Assembly (NCBI GenBank): GCA_937902925.1
Contig: CALFNN010000074.1
Location: 1-64,000 of the forward strand
Source of the DNA: an uncultured Opitutaceae bacterium
GTDB lineage: Bacteria > Verrucomicrobiota > Verrucomicrobiia > Opitutales > Opitutaceae
Length of the DNA stretch: 64,000 bases
Direction: 5' to 3'
Below, piece after piece: positions 8,488 through 18,949 of this stretch. Every line of letters begins with the position of its first letter. The stretch's first letter is position 1. Both the position numbers and the translations under genes were made by a program. Below the pieces are notes generated by a model. The model was given only the letters and a program-made list of their open reading frames with translations, made no database searches and was not told where the DNA came from.

Positions 8488-9981
8488 TTATTCCTTCAGC
8501 CGCTTTTGCAGCGCCGCCTTGGTCAGCCCGAGACGCTTCGCCGCCTTCGCCTCGTCGTTGCCGTCGGCGGCGAGCGCGCGTGCGATCAGCGCCTTCTCGA
8601 TCTGCGGCAGCAGCGGGCCGTCGTCGGCGAGGCGCGCAAAAACAACGTCGAGCGCCGCCTCGAGCGTGAGCGCCGTCCCGCCCGGCGGCGTTTCCTGCGC
8701 CGCAGGCACGGCGTGCACGGCGGCCGGGGCGGTCGCCGTCTCGACCGCCAGCGGCGGGGCGCTCCCCTCGCCCGCGCCGAGCGCGACGTTGCCGCGGATC
8801 TCGACCGGCAGGTCCTTCACGAGAATGGCGTCGCCCTGCGCGATGACCGCGCTGCGGTAGATCACATTCTCCAGTTCCCGCACGTTGCCCGGCCAGGTGT
8901 GCCGCGTGAGCAGCGCCATCGCCTCGGCGGACACCTTGGCAACCCGCGCCTTCTTTTGCTTCACGAGATTCTGCAGGCAGAAGTCGACAATCTGCGGCAC
9001 ATCCTCGATGCGCTCCCGCAGCGGCGGCATGCGGATCCGGACGACATTCAGCCGGTAGTAAAGGTCCTCGCGGAAGGTTTTCGCCTTCACCATCTCCTCG
9101 AGGTCCTTGTTGGTCGCCGCCAGGATGCGGACATCGACCTTGATCGTTTCCGTGCCGCCCACGCGCTGGATTTCGCCCGCCTGCAGCACGCGAAGAATCT
9201 TCGTCTGGGTCGCGAGCGCCATGTCGCCGATCTCGTCGAGGAAGATCGTGCCGCCGTCGCAGAGCTCGAATTTTCCCAGGCGCTGGCCGGTCGCGCCGGT
9301 AAACGAACCCTTTTCATGTCCGAAGAGCTCGCTTTCGATCAAGTTGTCGGGAATGGCGGCGCAGTTGACGGCGATGAACGGTTTGGCGGCGCGATGGCTG
9401 TGCTTCCAGATCGAGCGGGCGACGAGCTCCTTGCCCGTGCCGCTCTCGCCGGTGATCATCACGGTCACGTCGCTCGCCGTCACCTGGCCGATGACCTTGA
9501 ACACATCCTGCATCACCGGTGAACTGCCCACGATGCCCTCGCGGTAGTCGTCGGCGTTGATGGTCGGCTTGTAGTCGCCGACGGCACGGAGGTCGGCGTG
9601 GGCCTTCAGCGCATTCTCGGCCAGCGCGAGCACCTTCGCTGGATCGAAGGGCTTCATCACGTAGTCGAACGCGCCGTATTTCATCGCCTCGATCGCGGTC
9701 TGGGCGGTGCCAAAGGCCGTCATGAGCACGACGAGTTGCTTGGGGTTGATGGAGCGGATGTGCTGCAGCGCCTCGATGCCGCCCATGCCGCCCATGCGCA
9801 CGTCGAGAAACACGAGGTCGGGCGGCGGCCCCTTCTTGACGTGTGCGATGCCCGCCTCGCCGCTCGCCGCCTCCAGCACCTGATACTGCCGCGACGACAG
9901 CACGCGCGACAGCGAGTAGCGGATTTCGGCGTCGTCGTCGATGACCAGGATGGTGGGAGGCTTGACGGAGGGTTCGGACAT
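8488..9981 (-). CDS. Sigma-54-dependent response regulator, NtrC family
   Basis: A 497-aa transcriptional activator with three domains. A receiver covers residues ~10-125, with phospho-acceptor Asp60 in LVFLDVR and a KP pair in YVMKPFDP. An AAA+ sigma-54 interaction domain covers ~150-390, with Walker A GESGTGKE at 178-185 and arginine-finger region. A Fis-type helix-turn-helix lies at the C-terminus ([18 protein letters not shown]). The sigma-54-contacting loop reads GSFTGA at 225-230, one residue away from the usual GAFTGA. No cognate kinase adjoins it. It is upstream of the ThuA and esterase genes on the same strand and diverges from the M50 protease gene. Confidence 0.95.
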
Positions 9982-10046
9982 GGCAGGGAGCGTGGAATGA
10001 AAAGAGAACGCTGGCGATTTCCGCCGGCGCGCCTTTGTTAAACCTC

Positions 10047-10841
10047 ATGCTTGGCTGGTCAATGAACCTTTTCCGCGTCCGCGGCATTCAGCTCGCGGTG
10101 CACTTCTCCTTTTTCCTTTTGCTCGCCTATCGGGCGGAGGACGGCTGGGACAACGGTGGCTGGCCCGGGCTGGTTTGGGGCGCAACCACGCTCATCGCCT
10201 TCTTCACGTGCGTGGTGCTGCACGAATTGGGGCATTCGTTCACGGCAATGCGCTTCGGCATCGGCGTCCGGCGCATTCTGCTGATGCCGATTGGCGGCAT
10301 GGCGGAAATGGACGACATCCCGCGCCAGCCGGTCCGCGAGGGCCTCATCACGCTCGCCGGCCCCGCCGTGAACTTCGCGATCGCCGGCGTGCTTTGGGGC
10401 GGCCTGGCGCTGGCGCAGGTGCCGGATGAGGCCCTGGACGGCTACACGCTGCCCGCCTTCGTGGACCTATTGATGTTTTGGAATTTGCTGATGGGAATCT
10501 TCAATCTTCTCCCCGCGTTTCCCATGGATGGCGGCCGCATCCTCCGGGCGCTGCTGGCGCTCAAGATGCCCTACATGCGCGCCACGATTTGGGCGGTGCG
10601 GATCGGCAAGATTGTCGCCGGGGTCTGCGCGCTTCTCGCCCTGATCCTGCCACCGCTGCTTTACCGTTCCTCACCGGCGTTCCTGATCGTCGCCCTGTTC
10701 GCGTTCATCATTTTCGCCGGCGAGATGGAACTTCGCGCCATCCGCCGGCGCGAACTCGAGGACGCGCACTGGCGGGCGATCCTGGCCCGGACCTACCAGA
10801 CGTTTCCACCCGTGGAGGAACCGCCGGTCCTGATACGATAA
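10047..10841 (+). CDS. Site-2 protease-like M50 family membrane metallopeptidase
   Basis: A 264-aa integral membrane protein. The zinc-binding motif HELGH is at residues 59-63 inside a transmembrane helix, and the third ligand appears as Asp161 in LLPAFPMDGGR, the standard M50 second motif. At least five hydrophobic helices are visible, among them VHFSFFLLLAY at the start and ALLALILPPLLY and FLIVALFAFIIFAG near the end. Such enzymes cut transmembrane regulators within the bilayer. ATG 10047 (MLGWSMNLFR) fits better than a TTG four codons upstream. No anti-sigma or membrane substrate gene adjoins it, so the target is unknown. It is short, with no PDZ or CBS domain. Confidence 0.9.
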   Translation: MLGWSMNLFRVRGIQLAVHFSFFLLLAYRAEDGWDNGGWPGLVWGATTLIAFFTCVVLHELGHSFTAMRFGIGVRRILLMPIGGMAEMDDIPRQPVREGLITLAGPAVNFAIAGVLWGGLALAQVPDEALDGYTLPAFVDLLMFWNLLMGIFNLLPAFPMDGGRILRALLALKMPYMRATIWAVRIGKIVAGVCALLALILPPLLYRSSPAFLIVALFAFIIFAGEMELRAIRRRELEDAHWRAILARTYQTFPPVEEPPVLIR

Positions 10842-10893: not shown

Positions 10894-12828
10894 TCAGGCG
10901 CGCGGATGGAGCAGCTCGTGGACCGTGGTCAACAGCTTTTCCGGTTTGAACGGTTTGGGTAGAAACCCCGCGGCGAAATCCTGAGGCCGGGGCGAGGCGC
11001 GCTGGCCGTGCCCGTTGCCGTTGGTGCGCTCGACCCCGCCACTCATGACGAGGATCTTCACGTCGGGATTGATTCGCTTCATGGCCGCCGCGAGCAGGGC
11101 GCCGTCGAGGTTCGGCATGTTCAAATCGGTCACGACGAGCCGGATTTCTTCCGCCTGCCGCCCGAAGAGCATCACCGCCTCGGTGCCATCGGCCGCCAGC
11201 AGGGCGCGATAACCGTGACTCGTGAGCATCGTCGCCGTCATCTCGCGAATATACTGTTCGTCGTCGACCACGAGGATGAGTTCGCCGCTGCCACGCGGGA
11301 GCGCCTTCGAATGGGGATGCGCCGAATCCGTTTGGGACGCTTCCGCGGCGGGAAGATAAATCCGGAAGCGTGCGCCCTCGCCCACGACCGTGTGCAACGT
11401 CACGAATCCCTCGTGGTTCTTGACGATGCCGCGGACGGTCGAAAGCCCGAGGCCGGTGCCTTTGCCGGGCTCTTTCGTGGTGAAAAACGGCTCCCACATG
11501 CGCGCGAGCACCTCCGGCGCGATGCCGGTGCCGGTATCCGCCACCTCAACCACGAGAAACGCCCCGGCCCGCCCGCCGTCGATCCCCGCCGCCGCCGCTG
11601 CATCCAGCACGAGGTTTTCCGTTCGCAGCGTGAGCGTGCCCCCCTGCGGCATCGCGTCGCGGGCGTTGACGCAAAGGTTGAGCACGACTTGGTGGATCTG
11701 GGTCGGGTTCGCCTGGATCGGCCACAAGTCGCCGGATCTATGCTCCTCCAGACGGATGGCCTTGGGGAACGTGCTTTCGATCACGGCCGCGATGTCGCGC
11801 AGCAGGTGTTTCACCTGGATCAATCGGTGCCCGCCGCCGGCCCCGTGGGAAAACGCGAGAATCTGGCGGACCAGGGCGGCGCCGCGCTCGGCGCTTTGCT
11901 CCAGGATTTCGAGCAACCGGAGGGGACCGGCCCCGGTCACCGCCTCGCGGAGCAACGGCGCCGCCATGAGGATCGGGGCGAGCATGTTGTTCAAGTCGTG
12001 CGCGATGCCGGCGGAAAGCAGGCCGATGTTCTCCATCCGCTGGGCCCGGAGGAATTGTTCCTCGAGCCGCTTTTTCTCGGTCACGTCGCTAAGGATGCTC
12101 AAGCGTGCCTTCGGCCGGCCGGCCTCGTCGCGAATGAGGGTCTGGCGGGTTTCCACGATCAGTGCGCCACCCTGCCGGTCGCGGAATTGAATCTCCCCAT
12201 GCCACTCGCCCTGCTCATCGGTCGTGGCATTGGCGGACTCCAACTGGGCGAGCATGCTCGGACCGAAGAGCTGGACCGCCGACTTTCCCAGCGCCTCGTC
12301 GCCCGTCCAGCCGAGCAGGCGGCCGGCGCCGCCATTCCAATACACGACGCGATTCGCGAGGTCCGTGATGATCAGCGCCTCGGTGGCGTGGTTGAGCATT
12401 TCCGCCTGCTCGCGGATCTGTCGCTCGGCTTGCAGGCGCTTCCGGCGTTCCTCGTTTTCCCGCAGCACCCGGTGGATGGCCGGGATCAGCCGCTTCATCC
12501 GATCCTTGATGACGTAGTCTTCCGCCCCGGCCTGCAGCGCCTCGATCGCCCGGTCCTCGCCGATGGTCCCCGAGAGAAACATGAACGGAATCTCCGGCGC
12601 ACGCTGCTTGGCGAGCCGGAGCGCATCCATCCCGTTGAACGCCGTCAGCGTGAAGTCCGACAGGATCAAGTCATAGTCGCCGAGGTGCAGTTCGCCGGTG
12701 TAGGCGAACGGCGTCGACACCGCGCGGATATCGGCATCGGGCCACTCCGCGACCACGAGTTCGCGAACGAGCGCCGCGTCTCCGGGATTGTCCTCGAGAT
12801 GAAGAATTCGCATAAGCTTTGGCGCCAT
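10894..12828 (-). CDS. Hybrid histidine kinase REC-PAS-HisKA-HATPase-REC
   Basis: A 644-aa soluble hybrid kinase with no transmembrane segment. Order: receiver at ~5-125 (acceptor Asp58 in LILSDFT), PAS at ~145-255, histidine phosphotransfer helix with His277 in AGIAHDLNN (NtrB-like H-box), HATPase domain with N-box LNLCVNARDAM and glycine-rich GKGTGLGLSTV, and a second receiver at ~525-640 with Asp in LVVTDLNMP. With no periplasmic domain it must sense a cytoplasmic cue or relay from another protein. It starts 36 bases downstream of the YcaO-like gene on the same strand and is probably the last gene of the peptide/YcaO/kinase operon. Confidence 0.9.
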   Translation of the reverse strand: MAPKLMRILHLEDNPGDAALVRELVVAEWPDADIRAVSTPFAYTGELHLGDYDLILSDFTLTAFNGMDALRLAKQRAPEIPFMFLSGTIGEDRAIEALQAGAEDYVIKDRMKRLIPAIHRVLRENEERRKRLQAERQIREQAEMLNHATEALIITDLANRVVYWNGGAGRLLGWTGDEALGKSAVQLFGPSMLAQLESANATTDEQGEWHGEIQFRDRQGGALIVETRQTLIRDEAGRPKARLSILSDVTEKKRLEEQFLRAQRMENIGLLSAGIAHDLNNMLAPILMAAPLLREAVTGAGPLRLLEILEQSAERGAALVRQILAFSHGAGGGHRLIQVKHLLRDIAAVIESTFPKAIRLEEHRSGDLWPIQANPTQIHQVVLNLCVNARDAMPQGGTLTLRTENLVLDAAAAAGIDGGRAGAFLVVEVADTGTGIAPEVLARMWEPFFTTKEPGKGTGLGLSTVRGIVKNHEGFVTLHTVVGEGARFRIYLPAAEASQTDSAHPHSKALPRGSGELILVVDDEQYIREMTATMLTSHGYRALLAADGTEAVMLFGRQAEEIRLVVTDLNMPNLDGALLAAAMKRINPDVKILVMSGGVERTNGNGHGQRASPRPQDFAAGFLPKPFKPEKLLTTVHELLHPRA

Positions 12829-12864
12829 GCGCGCCGCCCTGCCCGGGCGGTCGCCGCGGCGGGG

Positions 12865-13752
12865 TCACCAGAAAAAATACCGATCGTCTCCGCCGAGATA
12901 CCCTTCCCCCGGCGGTTGCAGCGCGAACCGCCACACGGTGGCGTAGTCCGCCCAGGGGCCCGGGATATCGCGGTCACAGGCGACCACCGCCTGCGGCATG
13001 GCTGCGCTGGCGCGCTCGCGCAGCCGTTCGCGAAATGCCTCGTGCCCCTCCTCGGTCGCGAAGAACAGGCAGCGACGCTCGAAGAGGCTCGTGGGAGGTT
13101 CCTTCTCGCCCGCGGCGAAGGCGAGCCACCACGCGCGCAGCACCCATTCATGGCGCGCCAGCTCGATCATGGCGCGCTCGCAGGCGGCGCCCACGGACTC
13201 CTCGGCGGCGTGTCCATAGGCATACCCACCCCAGTCGGTGCGCGCGAACACGATGGTCGCGACACCCCCGAACGGCCCGTTGATCGCGACCGCCGAGACG
13301 CCCGGCCAGTCGGTCTCGACCACCTGGCCCTGGGCCCGGCCTTCCCACCACGCGATCAGGCAGAAACGCTCGACGGCCTCGAGCATGGCCTTGCGCCGCG
13401 CGTTCCGGCGCAGGACGCCGGGAAACGCCGCCATCCCGTTCGAGGACGGATCGACGTCGAAGCCGAACTCGGCCGCCCGCTCGGAGCGCACGGTCGCGTG
13501 AAACGCCCAGCGCTCCAAGGCCTCGGACACGGCCATATGCCGGGCAATGCTGGCGATCCGGTGCGTGCCGGTGCCGTCGGCGTCGCTATAGATGCTCATC
13601 TGACGCTTGCGCGTCAGGCCGGGCGAAAGCCGGGCATTGGCCTGGAACATCCGGCGACTGCGCACGGGAAACTCCCCGGTTTCGATCCGCTCGACCGGCC
13701 CGCCATGGGCCGCGAGGACATTCCGATAACGCAAGGCAGCGAGGCTGATCAT
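12865..13752 (-). CDS. YcaO-like domain protein (possible peptide-modifying enzyme)
   Basis: A 295-aa cytoplasmic protein that I read as a divergent YcaO. The three ATP-site segments of that family can be matched in order: SEALER at residues 76-81 (family S..EA.ER), SNGMAA at 104-109 followed by the EAVER helix at 125-129 (family SNG.A.G...EA...E.IER), and RAMIELARHE at 193-202 (family RAL.E..Q, with Arg replacing Gln). YcaO enzymes use ATP to convert peptide backbone amides to azolines, thioamides or amidines; a RimO-assisting type also exists. No E1-like partner or dehydrogenase adjoins it. A 58-aa Cys/Thr/Ser-tailed peptide gene ends 28 bases upstream. The family call rests on motif order by eye, and function is inferred. 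Confidence 0.6.
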   Translation of the reverse strand: MISLAALRYRNVLAAHGGPVERIETGEFPVRSRRMFQANARLSPGLTRKRQMSIYSDADGTGTHRIASIARHMAVSEALERWAFHATVRSERAAEFGFDVDPSSNGMAAFPGVLRRNARRKAMLEAVERFCLIAWWEGRAQGQVVETDWPGVSAVAINGPFGGVATIVFARTDWGGYAYGHAAEESVGAACERAMIELARHEWVLRAWWLAFAAGEKEPPTSLFERRCLFFATEEGHEAFRERLRERASAAMPQAVVACDRDIPGPWADYATVWRFALQPPGEGYLGGDDRYFFW

Positions 13753-13780
13753 GGCGGGACGGGTGGAGGGACGCGCGAGA

Positions 13781-13957
13781 TCAATCCGTGTTGCACGGTG
13801 GCGTGCACCCGTCCGTTGGAGAGATCAACGCGTTCTTGGCGACGGCGGGAAGACTGGAATTCATAGGATCGAAGTGACTCGCCGCGCGTGCGAAACCGAC
13901 TGCAAACAGGAGGCTCGAGAGCGCTCCGAAGACGAAACGTTTGACTGTAGTATTCAT
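13781..13957 (-). CDS. 58-aa exported peptide with Cys-Thr-Pro-Pro-Cys tail, candidate YcaO substrate
   Basis: A small ORF from ATG 13957 to TGA 13781. The N-terminus is a textbook Sec signal: basic MNTTVKR, hydrophobic FVFGALSSLLFAVGF, then ARA-A as a likely cleavage site near residue 25. The remaining ~33 residues are polar and end SPTDGCTPPCNTD, with two Cys four apart and several Ser/Thr. The stop is 28 bases before the YcaO-like gene on the same strand, so the two are probably cotranscribed. Cys/Ser/Thr next to a YcaO suggests a RiPP precursor or a disulfide-bonded signal peptide; an exported hypothetical with no link to YcaO is the alternative. Codons are less GC-rich than in the neighbours. 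No Shine-Dalgarno is evident. Confidence 0.6.
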   Translation of the reverse strand: MNTTVKRFVFGALSSLLFAVGFARAASHFDPMNSSLPAVAKNALISPTDGCTPPCNTD

Positions 13958-14005: not shown

Positions 14006-14023
14006 CTACCGGAATTCCGGTAG
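14006..14023. promoter_or_regulatory. Perfect 18-bp palindrome between divergent signalling genes
   Basis: CTACCGGAATTCCGGTAG reads the same on both strands without mismatch. It lies in the 123-base divergent region between the 58-aa peptide gene and the propeller-kinase gene, 49 bases from the former start and 57 from the latter. A 10-bp palindrome (GCGCTAGCGC, 13991-14000) lies just beside it. A dimeric regulator operator is the natural reading; the protein that binds it is unknown. A related half-site (GCCGGAATT) recurs at about 14067-14075. Confidence 0.55.
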
Positions 14024-14080
14024 ATGCTCGGAAGTAAATTCGAGTCGCCTTTCCGGTCGAAGACGGCCGGAATTTGGCGA

Positions 14081-17000
14081 ATGAGGGTGACTGCGTCCAA
14101 GCACCTCCGAGCCGGTTGGCTGGTGACCGCTCTGGCTGTGTCGTATGCGGCGGGGCTTGTTGCTCCGCGCGTGTGTGGAGCGAGCCTTGGATTCCCGATC
14201 GTTACATCTTACTCGTCGACGGATATCGGGACCGACGCGATGAGCTGGGTTACGGTCCAAGACTCCGATGGCGTGCTTTATTTCGGATGTAGTGCACTGG
14301 TGAGCTTTGATGGTGATCGGTGGGGTATCACGTCGATGGATGACGCCTATGCGTTACGCGGTCTCGACTTTGGCAGCGACGGTCGACTGTGGGCGGCGGC
14401 TAACGGAAATATCGGTTGGTTTGCCCGCCTGCCAGGATCTCACTGGGGATTTCACTCATTGCTGGCGCAGATTCCGCCACAGGACCGACAGTTAGGCGAA
14501 GCGTGGAATGTTTTCGCCGAGAGCACCGGTGCGGTTTTTGTTTTGCGAGACCAGATTCTTCGGTGGAAAGGCAAGGCTTTTCAGAGATGGCTAATGCCAG
14601 GGACGGGGCGTCTGGAGGCAATGCGGAGCGGAGGCACAATTTTTGTGCATCATCGACCGACCGGGCTCTACGTCATGACGCCAGACGGCCCGCGGAAAGT
14701 TATTCCGGCCGAGTCGCTCCCGGATTCATCCATCTATTGGTTGGAGCGAACATCTAACGGATGGCTCTTCGCCACTTCGAACGGCCTTTATAATCTCGTC
14801 GCCGGCCACCTCCAGCCATTTGCGCCGGTTGCTTCCGAGTTGGTGCGGCGCTTCGCTCTAACGTGTGCGCTTCGCTTGCCCGACGGGCGACTGGCCCTTG
14901 GCACGTTCCGGGGAGGGATCATTTTGGTCGGCTCTGACGGCGCCCTTGATCACGTGTTGGATGCCGCCGACGGGCTGCCAACGCCAGTGATCTATTCGCT
15001 CCGCGTGGACCGCGATGGCCAACTGTGGGCGACATCTGGTTCTCATATTTTTCGCATCGGAATCAGCGGCCCCTCCACCCTGTTCGATGGACGTTCCGGC
15101 CTGCCGTCGCAGCCGGTTCTGAAGATCGTGCGGCACGAAACTCGACTCGAGGTTGCAGTAGATGCCGGAGTCTTTGGACTGGAGCCAGACGATAAACATT
15201 TCGGAGCGATGGAAGCCCTACGCGAGCGATTTCCAGATATGCTTTCGACCACACAGGGCTTGTTGGTTGGAAGCAACCACGACGTAAAACTGGTTGACGA
15301 TCACGTCGTCGACGTAATTTTTTCGGGTCAGGGCAGCGCTTTTGCACTGGGGGGCTCTCTTCGCTCGCCGGATAGCTTCCTTGCATCGGTTGGACAGAAT
15401 ATTGTCCTGCTGCATGCGCACGCCCAGCCTCGCGTCCTCGTGCAAAACCTGCCCGATCTTGCGCAGACGCTGGCGGAAGATCGTTCCGGCGCGTTGTGGC
15501 TTGGCACGACGACTCGGGGTATTCTGATGGCAAAACCTCAATCCGATTCGCCCGTCGAGGCGGTAGCCACCGGCCCCGCGGAAGGATTGCCCGGATCCGC
15601 TTTTCGAAGCTCCGTGCTGGGCGCGCCTGATGGCACGGTCCTGGCCTTCTCGACGCTCGGCGGCTGGATCAAGGGACGCGACGCAAAGCGATTCGAACCC
15701 ATCGCTGCCTATCCCCAGCGGGGTAGTCCCGCGCTTTCGAACGTCGATGCCAACGGCGCAGCCTGGGCGGTGCTTCCCGCATCTGACGGTCGGCCGGCCT
15801 GCCTCGGCCGAATCGCCATCAAGGGCGACCACGCCGTTTGGGAACCTGAGTCCGTCGAAGGACTGTGGAACGTGGGCATGCCGAGGACGCTCTTCGCCGA
15901 AAATTCCGAATCCGGTGCCACCGTTCTTTGGATCGGCGGCACGAACGGCATTCTTCGCACCTCCGTGGCAGCCGGCGCCGTCGCGACCCCTCCCCGCGCA
16001 CCGCTGCTGCACGCCTTCGCCCGTGCGGCTGGCAGCCGCACGCCGCAACCCATCAACGGCGCGCTTTCCTACTCCACCCGCTCGATATCGTTCGAATTCG
16101 CCGCACCGGAATTTTCCCGGCGCGCGGCTTTGCGCCTGGAGACGCGGATCGACGGCGTGGATGCCGACTGGGTGCCAGCCAACGCCACCTCGCGCCGCGA
16201 ACTCACGGCGGTGCGCGACGGCAGCTATGTCTTCCGTGTCCGCGCCGTCGCCGAGACGGGCGCCGTCAGCGAGGCGTCGGTGTTTGCGTTCACGGTGACC
16301 CCGCCGTGGTGGCGGACGGCGCCGGCGATCCTTGGCGCGATCATTGCGCTTCTTCCCGTCCTGTATGGCGCCTACCGTCTCCGCATTCGCGCGTTCCGTC
16401 GCCGCAACGCCGACCTCGAGGCCAAGGTCCGGCAGCGCACCGAGGAACTGGCACGCGCGAGCGCGGCCAAAACACAGTTCGTGGCCAACATGAGCCACGA
16501 CATCCGCAATCCGCTCAACGGCATTGTCGGCTTGACCCTCGCGCTCGAGGATTCGCCCCTCGATGCCCGGCAAAGCGAAATCGTCGCCACCTTGCGCGAG
16601 TGCACCGCCTATCTGTCGACGCTGGTGGACGACGTCCTCGACTTCGCCAGCATCGAGGCTGGGCGGATCGAACTGCGGCCCGCGCCGTTTGTGCCCGCGG
16701 AACTGTTGCGGTCCGTCGCCGCCGCGCTCCGCGCCCGCCTTCCCGTCAGCGGCGCAACGCTGGTGATCGAGCCCGGACCGGACCTGCCGTCAGCCGTCCT
16801 CGGCGATGCCGGCCGCATCCAACAGATCCTCGTCAACTACGTCACCAATGCCCTCAAATACGCCGGCGGCACCATTCGCCTGGGTGCGACCGTTCGCGTC
16901 GAGGATCGCGAGGAGGTGGAGTTTGCCGTGGCGGACGATGGCCCGGGTCTCACCGGGGCGGAGCGCGCGGTGTTGTTCACGAAGTTCACCCGGCTGGCCA

Positions 17001-17941
17001 AGGTCGGCGGCGAAAACGTCGAGGGCACCGGCTTGGGCTTGGCCTCGTGCCGCCTGCTGGCCGACGCGATGGGCGGCTCCGTGGGAGTCGACAGCTCTCC
17101 GGGCCACGGGGCGCGGTTTTACCTCCGGCTGCCGCTCGCGGTGGCACCGCCGCCAGCGGAGGTGCCCGCCAGTTCCCTGCCGCAAGCCAGCGTGCTGATC
17201 GTCGAGGACACCGATTATAACGCCGTGGCGGCGACCGCGGTTCTCGCCAAACTCGGCCTCGCCAGCGAACGCGCCCGCAACGGGCACGAGGCGCTGCGCC
17301 TTTTCGCCGACCGGCGCTTCAACATCGTCCTGCTCGACCGCAATCTCCCGGACATGGACGGGACCGAAGTGGCCCGGCGCATCCGGGAACTCGAGGGCGG
17401 CAGCCCGCAGTCGATTCTGCTCGCCGTCACGGCCTACTGCACCGCCGAGGATCGCACGCTGTGCCTGAATGCCGGCATGGATGCTTTTGTGGGCAAACCC
17501 CTCACGCCGGAAAAGCTGCGCAAGGTTTTGATCGACGCCGGCCGCAAGCTCCTCTCCGCGGCTTCCGTGCAGGTGCCGCCGGGACCCCAGGATGAGGCGA
17601 TCGATCTTTCGCTGCTGGGCTATATTTCGGACGGGACCGCCCAGGGACTGACGGTTCAGATCGAGCGTTTCCTCGCCGCCCTGTCGGAGGCCAGGGCGCA
17701 GGTGGCGCGTGCCGTCGACAACCGCGACCTCGCGGCGCTGGCCGATGCGGCGCATCAAGTGCTCTCGCATGCCAAGCTGATCGGCCGCAAGCCGCTCGAG
17801 GCCGCCGCGCTTCACCTCGAAAAGACCGCCCGGGCGTCCGACGCGGCCGCCTTTGACGATCCGCTCCGGCGGGTGCGGTCCGAGGCCGATGCCCTCACGG
17901 CAGCGTTGCATTGCCGCCTGCGCGCGAAGCAGTCAGCGTGA
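14081..17941 (+). CDS. Periplasmic-propeller hybrid histidine kinase (Reg_prop/Y_Y_Y-HisKA-HATPase-REC-Hpt)
   Basis: A 1286-aa hybrid two-component system. From ATG 14081 there is a signal peptide or anchor (GWLVTALAVSYAAGLV), then a large periplasmic sensor made of propeller repeats (for example DRDGQLWATSGSHIFRI) and a Y_Y_Y-like domain at ~663-740. A transmembrane helix lies at ~743-767. HisKA has His ~806 in NMSHDIRNPLNG, followed by the HATPase domain (~880-1020), a receiver with Asp in IVLLDRNLP (~1083) and an Hpt domain around AHQVLSH (~1221). In Bacteroidota such proteins sense polysaccharide fragments; here the ligand is unknown. The frame extends upstream to 14024. The 5' part is visibly less GC-rich than the kinase part. 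Its end overlaps the convergent LuxR gene by 47 bases. Confidence 0.9.
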   Translation: MRVTASKHLRAGWLVTALAVSYAAGLVAPRVCGASLGFPIVTSYSSTDIGTDAMSWVTVQDSDGVLYFGCSALVSFDGDRWGITSMDDAYALRGLDFGSDGRLWAAANGNIGWFARLPGSHWGFHSLLAQIPPQDRQLGEAWNVFAESTGAVFVLRDQILRWKGKAFQRWLMPGTGRLEAMRSGGTIFVHHRPTGLYVMTPDGPRKVIPAESLPDSSIYWLERTSNGWLFATSNGLYNLVAGHLQPFAPVASELVRRFALTCALRLPDGRLALGTFRGGIILVGSDGALDHVLDAADGLPTPVIYSLRVDRDGQLWATSGSHIFRIGISGPSTLFDGRSGLPSQPVLKIVRHETRLEVAVDAGVFGLEPDDKHFGAMEALRERFPDMLSTTQGLLVGSNHDVKLVDDHVVDVIFSGQGSAFALGGSLRSPDSFLASVGQNIVLLHAHAQPRVLVQNLPDLAQTLAEDRSGALWLGTTTRGILMAKPQSDSPVEAVATGPAEGLPGSAFRSSVLGAPDGTVLAFSTLGGWIKGRDAKRFEPIAAYPQRGSPALSNVDANGAAWAVLPASDGRPACLGRIAIKGDHAVWEPESVEGLWNVGMPRTLFAENSESGATVLWIGGTNGILRTSVAAGAVATPPRAPLLHAFARAAGSRTPQPINGALSYSTRSISFEFAAPEFSRRAALRLETRIDGVDADWVPANATSRRELTAVRDGSYVFRVRAVAETGAVSEASVFAFTVTPPWWRTAPAILGAIIALLPVLYGAYRLRIRAFRRRNADLEAKVRQRTEELARASAAKTQFVANMSHDIRNPLNGIVGLTLALEDSPLDARQSEIVATLRECTAYLSTLVDDVLDFASIEAGRIELRPAPFVPAELLRSVAAALRARLPVSGATLVIEPGPDLPSAVLGDAGRIQQILVNYVTNALKYAGGTIRLGATVRVEDREEVEFAVADDGPGLTGAERAVLFTKFTRLAKVGGENVEGTGLGLASCRLLADAMGGSVGVDSSPGHGARFYLRLPLAVAPPPAEVPASSLPQASVLIVEDTDYNAVAATAVLAKLGLASERARNGHEALRLFADRRFNIVLLDRNLPDMDGTEVARRIRELEGGSPQSILLAVTAYCTAEDRTLCLNAGMDAFVGKPLTPEKLRKVLIDAGRKLLSAASVQVPPGPQDEAIDLSLLGYISDGTAQGLTVQIERFLAALSEARAQVARAVDNRDLAALADAAHQVLSHAKLIGRKPLEAAALHLEKTARASDAAAFDDPLRRVRSEADALTAALHCRLRAKQSA

Positions 17942-18596
17942 ACCCGTGGTCCTGCGCGTAGCGCGCGAGCTCGGTCGTGTTTTGCAGCCCGAGTTTGTGC
18001 AGGATGTTGAAGCGATGTTTCGCCACCGTCTCGTTGGAGATGTCGAGGGTCTCGGCGATCTCGCGGTCGGTGCGCGGTTCCCCGATCAACGCCAGCACCG
18101 CCTGCTCCCGCTCGGTGAGCAGCTTGTCGAACGAGTGCGGATCGCGATGGCGCGTCGCCTTCACCCGCTGAAACGCCTCGGAAAAATAGGCGCGGCCTTC
18201 GTGCACCGCCGTGATCGCGTTTTTCAAGATCGCGACGGTGTTCGTGTTTTTGTCGACGAACCCCTGCACGTGCGCCTTCTCGGCGCGAAAGACCGTATAG
18301 TTGTCGCAGTGCGAGGAGAGGACCAGGATGCGAATCCGCGGCGCCACCCGCCGGATCGCCTCGACGACGCCGAATCCATCCAGGTTCGGCAGGTGCAGGT
18401 CGAGCAGCACCAGGTCGGGCGTGGTCGCCAGCACGAGCTCCACCGCCCGGCGGCCGTCGGCCGCCTCGCCAACGATTTCATGGCCGAGGTCGTGCTTGCA
18501 CACTTTGCGCAGCACCTCGCGAAACATGAGGTGGTCCTCGACGATGACGATTCTCACGGGCAACACGATGCGGCGGCAGCCGCGGCGCGCAAGCAT
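17895..18596 (-). CDS. LuxR/NarL-family response regulator
   Basis: A receiver plus LuxR-type helix-turn-helix protein. The receiver begins RIVIVEDHLMFREVL, with acceptor Asp in LVLLDLHLPNLDG and a conserved Lys in GFVDKNT. The DNA-binding domain includes LTEREQAVLALIGEPRTDREIAETLDISNETVAKHRFNILHKLG, the standard pattern. The start is uncertain: ATG 18596 gives 233 residues with a basic extension, while TTG 18563 or GTG 18557 would begin almost at the receiver and may be the true start. The 3' end overlaps the convergent propeller-kinase gene by 47 bases. Output for that kinase or for the 10894 kinase is plausible. Confidence 0.9.
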   Translation of the reverse strand: MLARRGCRRIVLPVRIVIVEDHLMFREVLRKVCKHDLGHEIVGEAADGRRAVELVLATTPDLVLLDLHLPNLDGFGVVEAIRRVAPRIRILVLSSHCDNYTVFRAEKAHVQGFVDKNTNTVAILKNAITAVHEGRAYFSEAFQRVKATRHRDPHSFDKLLTEREQAVLALIGEPRTDREIAETLDISNETVAKHRFNILHKLGLQNTTELARYAQDHGFTLTASRAGGNATLP

Positions 18597-18949
18597 CGTG
18601 CGTCGGGCTGCGCGGGCCTCACGACTCACCGCTCGTTGGCGCGGTCCGGGCGCCACCCGGCTGCGGGGGCGGCCTTATCTCCCGGACCAGGCTCGCACGG
18701 CCCACCCGCGGGGCGCCGGAAGTCAAGGATGGTGGTCTATCTTGAACAAAGCTCGACCCTTCTTTGACGAAAATCCTGCCGTTTAGGGTATCCCCACACC
18801 CTTCCCCACAGCGGGGAGGGCCTACGATGCCAAACTGGCCTTTCACAGCAACGATTTAAGCCCGGTTCACCCGTTCTCCCGCATCCCCGACTTCGGTCGG
18901 TTTTCGGTCGCTCGTCGCAGACTCCTCGCTCTCCGAAAACCTCCCTCAT

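Follow-up and report, generated by a model that had tools for sequence, protein, structure and literature searches.

The DNA analysed here, called the window, is a stretch of 64,000 nucleotides from an uncultured Opitutaceae bacterium (Verrucomicrobiota; assembly GCA_937902925.1, contig CALFNN010000074.1, positions 1 to 64,000 of the forward strand). It carries a gene module of the kind expected for a ribosomally synthesized and post-translationally modified peptide (RiPP), together with genes of a two-component system. Three open reading frames (ORFs) of 58, 295 and 644 amino acids (aa) follow each other on the minus strand, separated by 28 and 36 nt. The coordinates and arrangement given in the original prediction, which had been made from the DNA letters alone, were borne out; that prediction touched only briefly on the divergent propeller kinase described below and included neither the response regulator nor the dyad. 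The first ORF is the RiPP precursor gene (13781-13957), recognized by a leader hidden Markov model (HMM), its linkage to the next gene and its codon-position bias. A signal-like leader (residues 1-30, 13868-13957) is followed by a variable tail with the motif CTPPC (13793-13807). The second ORF (12865-13752) encodes a short stand-alone YcaO enzyme of 295 aa from a family usually ending in FFW, assigned by family alignments, an AlphaFold (AF2) model, structure matches in Foldseek and VIA, and active-site residues. The third (10894-12828) encodes a soluble hybrid kinase of 644 aa with the domain order REC-PAS-HisKA-HATPase-REC, in which Pfam found the domains named before. Upstream of the precursor, a perfect dyad of 18 bases, CTACCGGAATTCCGGTAG, lies between divergent promoters (14006-14023, no strand) and starts 66 nt upstream of the precursor ATG. 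A divergent propeller hybrid histidine kinase gene follows on the plus strand (14024-17941, ORF of 1305 aa, likely start at 14081; Pfam and a sensor model), facing a minus-strand gene for a NarL/FixJ-type response regulator with a REC domain and a GerE/LuxR helix-turn-helix domain (17895-18656, likely true start near 18557; Pfam). The 3' ends of these two convergent genes overlap by 47 nt (17895-17941).

Homologues of the YcaO gene were present in 33 of 115 genomes, the window genome included, at 37 places, two of them in the window genome. In a phylum-wide draw of 387 genomes, with six candidates scored per genome, 14 had the YcaO at E ≤ 1e-10, all from the family or the order of the window. 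From 84,980 species genomes scanned, 99 stretches were confirmed and 80 retained. The titles of these 80 read Opitutaceae, Opitutales, Opitutia, Opitutae or plain Verrucomicrobia/Verrucomicrobiota, one only 'bacterium', and the genera included Opitutus, Lacunisphaera, Cephaloticoccus, Cerasicoccus and Coraliomargarita. No relatives from outside the order of the window were seen among the 387 phylum genomes and the 80 kept stretches. Isolates with the module YcaO are Cerasicoccus arenae KCTC 12870, Cerasicoccus maritimus NBRC 105382 and Coraliomargarita sp. SDUM461004; the leaders of the last gave only weak profile matches. The 37 places and 54 of the 80 stretches, 26 judged duplicates having been removed, formed a set of 91 loci; divergence and co-divergence tests used 67 of these, dyad and codon tests 79.

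The assignment of the 295-aa protein to the YcaO enzymes is weak by sequence. In a Pfam search it scored 20.5 bits against a PF02624 cut-off of 25.7, and a six-frame Pfam search of the whole genome for YcaO detected neither of the two copies. At family level, 34 of 36 members were linked to PF02624 at E ≤ 1, the best at 4.4e-12. A sequence-profile search of the PDB with the family alignment A1 (36 of the 37 places, the fragment in L067 left out) gave no matches. Profile alignment with hhalign paired E125, E128 and R129 with E199, E202 and R203 of E. coli YcaO, residues with an ATP role in the E. coli enzyme, and revealed a common SNGM...ExxER motif, at a modest probability of 50 % and an E of 1.6e-4. 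The structure gave a firm assignment. The AF2 model, calculated from a 77-row alignment, had a mean predicted local distance difference test score (pLDDT) of 94.1. The top 11 chains in Foldseek, from four PDB entries, were YcaO enzymes throughout, as were all 14 of the entries listed by VIA with Z ≥ 10; the first unrelated listed entry had a Z of 5.7. Among the VIA matches were chain D of the McbBCD complex (Z 17.2, root mean square deviation (rmsd) 3.9, 255 residues aligned), the M. kandleri YcaO (Z 16.7, rmsd 3.3, 243 aligned), a heterocyclase that we take to be LynD (Z 16.1, rmsd 4.0, 268 aligned) and E. coli YcaO (Z 12.5, rmsd 4.3, 244 aligned). In alignment A2 (n = 77: 76 of 80 loci and the window; L128, L141, L166 and L168 left out) the active-site residues, the Mg/ATP-binding glutamates among them, were conserved in nearly all rows, namely E77 in 77, E80 in 76, R81 in 77, E125 in 77, E128 in 74, R129 in 75 and E197 in 76. 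Tryptophan was the last residue in 67 of the 77 rows and the other 10 had a gap there; L036 and L057 end in FFL. A C-terminal PxPxP marks the azol(in)e-forming cyclodehydratases of the SagD type among the thiazole/oxazole-modified microcin (TOMM) enzymes. In the family alignments most members end in FFW instead, and the model of the SagD-type TOMM cyclodehydratases, TIGR03604, scored 24.5 bits over 24 matched residues against its cut-off of 219.25. As modelled, the protein is a YcaO-fold enzyme, and the identity proposed by the original prediction, which absence of this fold would have overturned, held.

The precursor family was delimited with an HMM of the leader, built from seven upstream ORFs as seed and run on 22,183 six-frame peptides from the 91 non-redundant loci (1.14 Mb). 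In 77 of the 91 loci the 500 nt upstream of YcaO contained a leader (E < 1e-3). Only four peptides outside these stretches reached E < 1. L118 has two of them, further upstream, L043 has one immediately 3' of YcaO, and the fourth is in L067; none is more than about 1.1 kb from YcaO, and all are on its strand. The next peptide had an E of 1.8. Whole-genome searches of the 115 genomes gave 31 leader matches at E ≤ 1e-5, every one beside a YcaO gene. Eight of nine weaker matches (E 4.7e-4 to 0.009) fell into frames of 184-815 aa away from YcaO, and the ninth was beside the YcaO of G104. Thus the 58-aa ORF is conserved beside YcaO in relatives, the point on which the earlier proposal of a peptide depended. 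Differences among related leaders (95 pairs) were distributed over codon positions 3, 1 and 2 as 1487, 728 and 399. Because of this bias and the leader upstream of YcaO in 77 loci, comparative sequence analysis identifies the ORF as a real gene and not a chance frame. The locus has the gene arrangement of a RiPP locus: a small gene for a precursor whose leader is conserved and whose core varies, adjoining an enzyme that would modify it.

In total, 86 precursors were collected from 81 loci, including one fusion in L067 (G016:C61), where a leader appears to run in frame into a truncated piece of YcaO, the probable remains of a copy that has decayed; the counts over 85 leaders and those before the last cysteine leave it out. 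The leader consensus is MKxxxRxxLGxxSSLLLxxGxxxAAxxLDP, with a conserved A..[LF]DP motif past the hydrophobic stretch; leader alignment A3 held 49 of the 85 leaders. The n-region was net positive in 78 of 85 leaders, and 61 had an [AVST]-x-A site plausible for signal peptidase. The tail contained cysteine in 80 of 86 precursors and CxxPC in 27; at least two cysteines occurred in only 57, at varying spacing. The last cysteine was preceded by proline at -1 in 47 of 79 tails and by cysteine at -4 in 35 of 79. Tandem cores were present in several precursors: five in L154 (SSAFSELPCQF), four in L057, three each in L146, L164 and L065, and two each in L135 and L039. In 37 pairs with a YcaO identity of at least 0.8, identity was 0.69 for leaders versus 0.37 for tails; the tails of distant pairs shared 0.26-0.28. 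One lineage (L041, L118, L119, L168) has tandem pairs of diverged precursors, and in L041, L119 and L168 one precursor of the pair has no cysteine in the tail.

Enzyme and leader went together across the loci. Of the 80 loci that have a standard leader (HMM E ≤ 0.3), 79 preserve every one of seven active-site positions; in the exception, L168, position 197 is a gap. Active-site substitutions were seen in five loci (L048, L058, L059, L060, L066), none of which has a standard leader (Fisher p 3e-5 over 90 of the 91 loci, uncorrected for relatedness). An intact site without a standard leader occurred in five loci: L136 and L166 at contig ends, L163 and L169 from Cerasicoccus, and L156 with a weak match. 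The YcaO very probably acts on the 58-aa precursor. In L058, L059 and L060, other signal-like peptides are encoded upstream of YcaO, proline-rich and with III[KR]-type stretches, which are repeated in L058 and L060; judged by its sequences, this branch is perhaps neofunctionalised.

The partner with the widest conservation was the divergent kinase. Its architecture in Pfam is a signal, a periplasmic double propeller with Y_Y_Y, a transmembrane segment, HisKA, HATPase, REC and Hpt; Y_Y_Y and Hpt were below the Pfam cut-off in the window kinase. In the kinase alignment A4 (37 loci and the window), 36 of 38 members had Reg_prop repeats and 24 had Y_Y_Y at E ≤ 0.01. A divergent frame of at least 1000 aa, or one reaching the contig end, was present in 79 of 91 loci; the other 12 comprised four nearly without upstream sequence, L118 with little, six with a frame of 571-960 aa and L045 with none. 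Where 1.5 kb of upstream sequence was available (84 loci), tblastn matched the sensor region in 70; of the 14 others, 12 matched the catalytic part on the same strand. Of the 68 loci whose upstream sequence extends to 5.5 kb, 60 have a response-regulator homologue there (tblastn). In L061, as in L063 and L156, a homologue of the NarL-type regulator lies just downstream of YcaO and not beyond the kinase (confirmed by Pfam for L061). Sensor matches at E ≤ 1e-20 occurred in 32 of 33 YcaO genomes versus 7 of 82 others, a supporting observation only, as at most nine candidates per genome were scored and several best matches were a paralogue elsewhere. The sensor model had a pLDDT of 92.3, and its best matches were the periplasmic sensors of BT4663 and BT3049 (TMq 0.70-0.76). 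Across the loci, sequence conservation is much lower in the sensor than in the kinase core. From gene linkage, the divergent kinase of 1300 aa is the most widely conserved partner of the precursor-YcaO pair, usually together with the NarL-type regulator.

The intergenic dyad may connect these genes to the precursor promoter. Of 79 loci, 26 have CTACC-N8-GGTAG, with at most one mismatch, ahead of the precursor, versus none of 201 control stretches. It started 64 to 66 nt upstream of the start codon in 16 of these loci and 84 to 88 nt upstream in seven. The symmetric form CTAC-N10-GTAG was likewise found in 26 of 79 loci, with one occurrence in 327 controls, and variants at -84 to -89 exist in other clades. 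Genome-wide, the CGGAATTCCG-type dyad (at most one mismatch) was confined to nine of 115 genomes, all YcaO-bearing, and the reversed control gave 0; it was at the module in six of the nine and only elsewhere in G010, G055 and G075. The stretch 14006-14023, between the promoters and at a clade-typical spacing, is a probable response-regulator site of the NarL type. That the kinase and the regulator control the precursor-YcaO operon is likely. The window genome has eight dyad copies, seven of them off the module (0-1 mismatch; G000:C3:1313, C18:13677, C28:92, C103:228521, C104:187536, C104:191637 and C104:196185), mostly intergenic and three within 9 kb on C104; they are possible trans targets of the regulator. 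A second module of the same genome (L047, G000:C37:110001-129853, YcaO at 9299-10180 on the minus strand, 46 % identical) has its own kinase, its own precursor and a different dyad type, ATACCATTTAAAAGGTAG, an arrangement that suggests insulated parallel circuits.

Downstream of YcaO the loci differ. By tblastn, 17 of the 77 loci that have 1.5 kb downstream carry the window type of soluble hybrid kinase after YcaO; frame clustering gave 19 of 77. These frequencies do not support it as core partner, and the dedicated kinase of the original prediction is a recurring accessory instead. A different, small soluble kinase was found in 14 other loci after a 70-80 aa protein directly 3' of YcaO, and HATPase_c was present in all six small kinases scanned by Pfam (L047, L126, L134, L138, L151, L162). 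Counting 19 loci with the window type and 14 with the small one, 33 of 77 have a soluble kinase after YcaO, a feature that recurs but is not universal. The gene of the 70-80 aa protein is within a few bases of YcaO (L044, L047, L053, L055, L056, L126, L134, L136, L138, L139, L141, L151, L162, L166). The family consists of two clusters of eight and six members matching each other (hhalign probability 96.5 %, E 8e-10), and two members scanned hit no Pfam family at cut-off; the protein could be a partner, a regulator or an immunity protein. A first neighbour clustering (37 loci, greedy ORF calling) revealed nothing shared beyond signalling genes, by a method that recovered YcaO in only 24 of the 37. 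The clustering was repeated without the greedy choice on 77 loci, with 3 kb downstream and the 12 largest clusters. The downstream clusters common to many loci, which also bear on a TfuA gene as in YcaO-TfuA thioamidation, were kinases, regulators and one small protein of no known family. An exporter gene common to the loci was not seen, in a search by neighbour clustering only. In the window, the gene of a membrane-embedded M50 protease (site-2 type), a type that might act on hydrophobic leaders, faces the soluble hybrid kinase gene (10035-10841); considered as a leader processor, it was in no neighbour cluster of at least three loci in the first clustering.

These observations can be joined in a working model in which the locus makes a YcaO-modified, exported RiPP that is controlled and perhaps also sensed by the kinase, an autoinducing pheromone; taken as a whole, we give this model a little less than an even chance. 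The conserved N-terminus of the precursor would serve as a signal-type leader and probably also as the recognition sequence of YcaO. In the cytoplasm, the enzyme would use ATP to modify the short cysteine-bearing tail, and its most likely target is the final cysteine of the CxxPC-like core or a residue beside it. The modified peptide would leave via Sec and lose its leader, and precursors with tandem cores would yield several copies. Outside the inner membrane the peptide would meet the propeller sensor that the divergent kinase has in the periplasm, phosphate would pass from the kinase REC via Hpt to the NarL-type regulator, and the regulator on the dyad would boost the precursor-YcaO operon, closing the loop of an autoinducing signal. 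Export of the peptide is probable, judged by the leaders. The 'clear Sec signal' of the original prediction was mostly right with respect to the positive n-region and the cleavage site, although 24 of 85 leaders lack a good [AVST]-x-A site and those of Coraliomargarita (L061, L063) are short. Of its modified and exported peptide sensed through a two-component system, the YcaO fold and the conservation of the peptide gained support, while the soluble kinase was not supported as core. Its last suggestion, the divergent propeller kinase as putative periplasmic sensor of the peptide, fits best. The peptide as kinase ligand, the most attractive and least documented step, has in our estimate close to an even chance.

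Several observations weigh against this model, the leaders without a good cleavage site and the short leaders among them. A neighbouring kinase is missing in L045. No regulator was found upstream in 8 of 68 loci; in three of these a homologue follows YcaO, directly in L063 and L156 and further on in L163, and in five none was found. The dyad of the strict type is missing in 53 of 79 loci. The sensor diverges quickly, and control propeller kinases, which mix paralogues, diverge to a similar degree: at a core identity of 0.55-0.65 its identity was 0.312 versus 0.308 in the controls, at 0.65-0.75 it was 0.402 versus 0.345 and at 0.75-0.85 0.449 versus 0.662 (5 control pairs). Tail and sensor co-diverged with a partial r of 0.216 (281 close pairs, reached in 1 of 300 permutations), compared with 0.279 for leader and sensor, and the tail-sensor co-divergence is not specific because the leader correlates at least as strongly. 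Over all 2,211 pairs the tail-sensor r was 0.086 (28 of 300 permutations). The soluble kinases after YcaO would fit cytoplasmic sensing as well. Finally, the title of one solved structure related to the sensor names heparin/heparan-sulphate sensing, so that a glycan or another cue is a possible ligand of the kinase.

The last point leads to the main rival, in which the kinase senses a glycan, a metal or a stress and induces an exported YcaO-modified bacteriocin, metal binder or envelope factor, the peptide being output only. This explanation is possible, at roughly one chance in three, and stays strong because the solved sensor of the same fold is by its title a glycan sensor; the closest solved sensors belong to Bacteroides hybrid two-component systems (HTCS). 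Hypervariable tails would suit bacteriocins too, and bufferins, RiPPs with a signal peptide, bind copper according to PMC12452194. A metal binder should, however, keep its cysteine pattern, and the numbers and spacing of cysteines in the tails vary. The further dyad copies suggest a wider regulon, yet 16 off-module sites with 0-1 mismatch in six genomes and two weaker ones in the window genome had no homologous neighbouring genes, so a wider regulon is possible only; this lack of common genes, and of an exporter gene shared by the loci clustered, counts against an induced effector, and the dyad copies without shared neighbours also weaken the pheromone model. A second explanation, which we consider unlikely, takes the N-terminus as only a recognition leader or membrane anchor, with the peptide staying in the inner membrane or cytoplasm and sensed by the downstream soluble kinases. 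The A..[LF]DP motif past the hydrophobic stretch, the leaders that are short or without a good cleavage site, and the soluble kinases after YcaO would agree with retention, whereas the plausible sites and positive n-regions of most leaders, the periplasmic-type sensor of the most widely conserved kinase and the absence of such a soluble kinase from 44 of 77 loci (clustering) argue for export. Least probable is an autoinduced bacteriocin, antimicrobial and its own inducer as nisin is: the operon with its dedicated two-component system and dyad, the hypervariable and tandem cores, and a candidate immunity protein, the 70-80 aa protein after YcaO in 14 of 77 loci, would suit it, but that protein is absent from the other clustered loci including the window's, and no common exporter was seen by the neighbour clustering.

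Parts of the module resemble known systems. In Agr and ComQXPA, Gram-positive peptide pheromone systems, a variable peptide and its modifying enzyme are linked to a membrane kinase and a regulator. The module shares with them the variable peptide, the dedicated modifying enzyme and the linked histidine kinase and regulator; it differs in the enzyme, the Sec-like leader, the propeller sensor, the Gram-negative-type envelope and a ligand role that is here conjectural. Bacteroides HTCS such as BT4663 and BT3049 have the same periplasmic double propeller with Y_Y_Y on a hybrid kinase. HTCS carry a fused C-terminal AraC-type DNA-binding domain. In Pfam, the window kinase had no such domain and ends in REC and Hpt; unlike in HTCS, the NarL-type regulator is a protein of its own, and the kinase gene is paired with a RiPP operon that runs the opposite way. 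The YcaO RiPP enzymes, among them E. coli YcaO, McbD, LynD, the methanogen YcaO and the streptamidine-type stand-alone YcaO (PMC8442711), share the fold, the motif and the adjoining small precursor gene. The window enzyme stands apart from them with its 295 aa, the mostly FFW end of its family, a score below the Pfam cut-off, the signal-type leader of its precursor and the attached kinase and regulator. The bufferins and other RiPPs with a Sec signal modified by multinuclear non-heme iron-dependent oxidative enzymes (MNIOs) are similar in that a signal-bearing cysteine precursor is encoded just before the modifying enzyme (PMC12452194). That source describes Sec signals as uncommon in bacterial RiPPs, and bufferins as the only ones for which export by Sec has been shown in the natural host. 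Unlike bufferins, the window system has a YcaO in place of the MNIO, a short hypervariable tail, and a dedicated propeller kinase with regulator. No description of the module was seen among the papers listed by the literature searches, with most subscription journals outside them, or in passages of PMC12452194, PMC10352776, PMC7794033, PMC8442711, PMC10885120 and PMC7298704. As comparative sequence evidence presents it, this is a real and conserved RiPP-type module with a dedicated sensor, undescribed as far as the literature searched shows.

Routine annotation would overlook precursors this short and a YcaO this divergent. Tentatively, and with somewhat less confidence than in the ligand role itself, the hypervariable CxxPC-type peptide of each lineage may be read by its own propeller kinase, which would constitute a YcaO-made, Sec-exported pheromone in a phylum of the Gram-negative type. 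If true, Sec-type leaders would extend to a second RiPP enzyme class beyond that of the bufferins, to which alone experiments have so far tied them according to PMC12452194, and a natural series of peptide/receptor pairs would be at hand for studies of specificity. Propeller kinases are a sensor class with a solved glycan-sensing relative, and their best-known members read sugars. Verrucomicrobiota, at least the Opitutaceae and their kin, would then carry a peptide signalling system made from a minimal YcaO and a propeller kinase.

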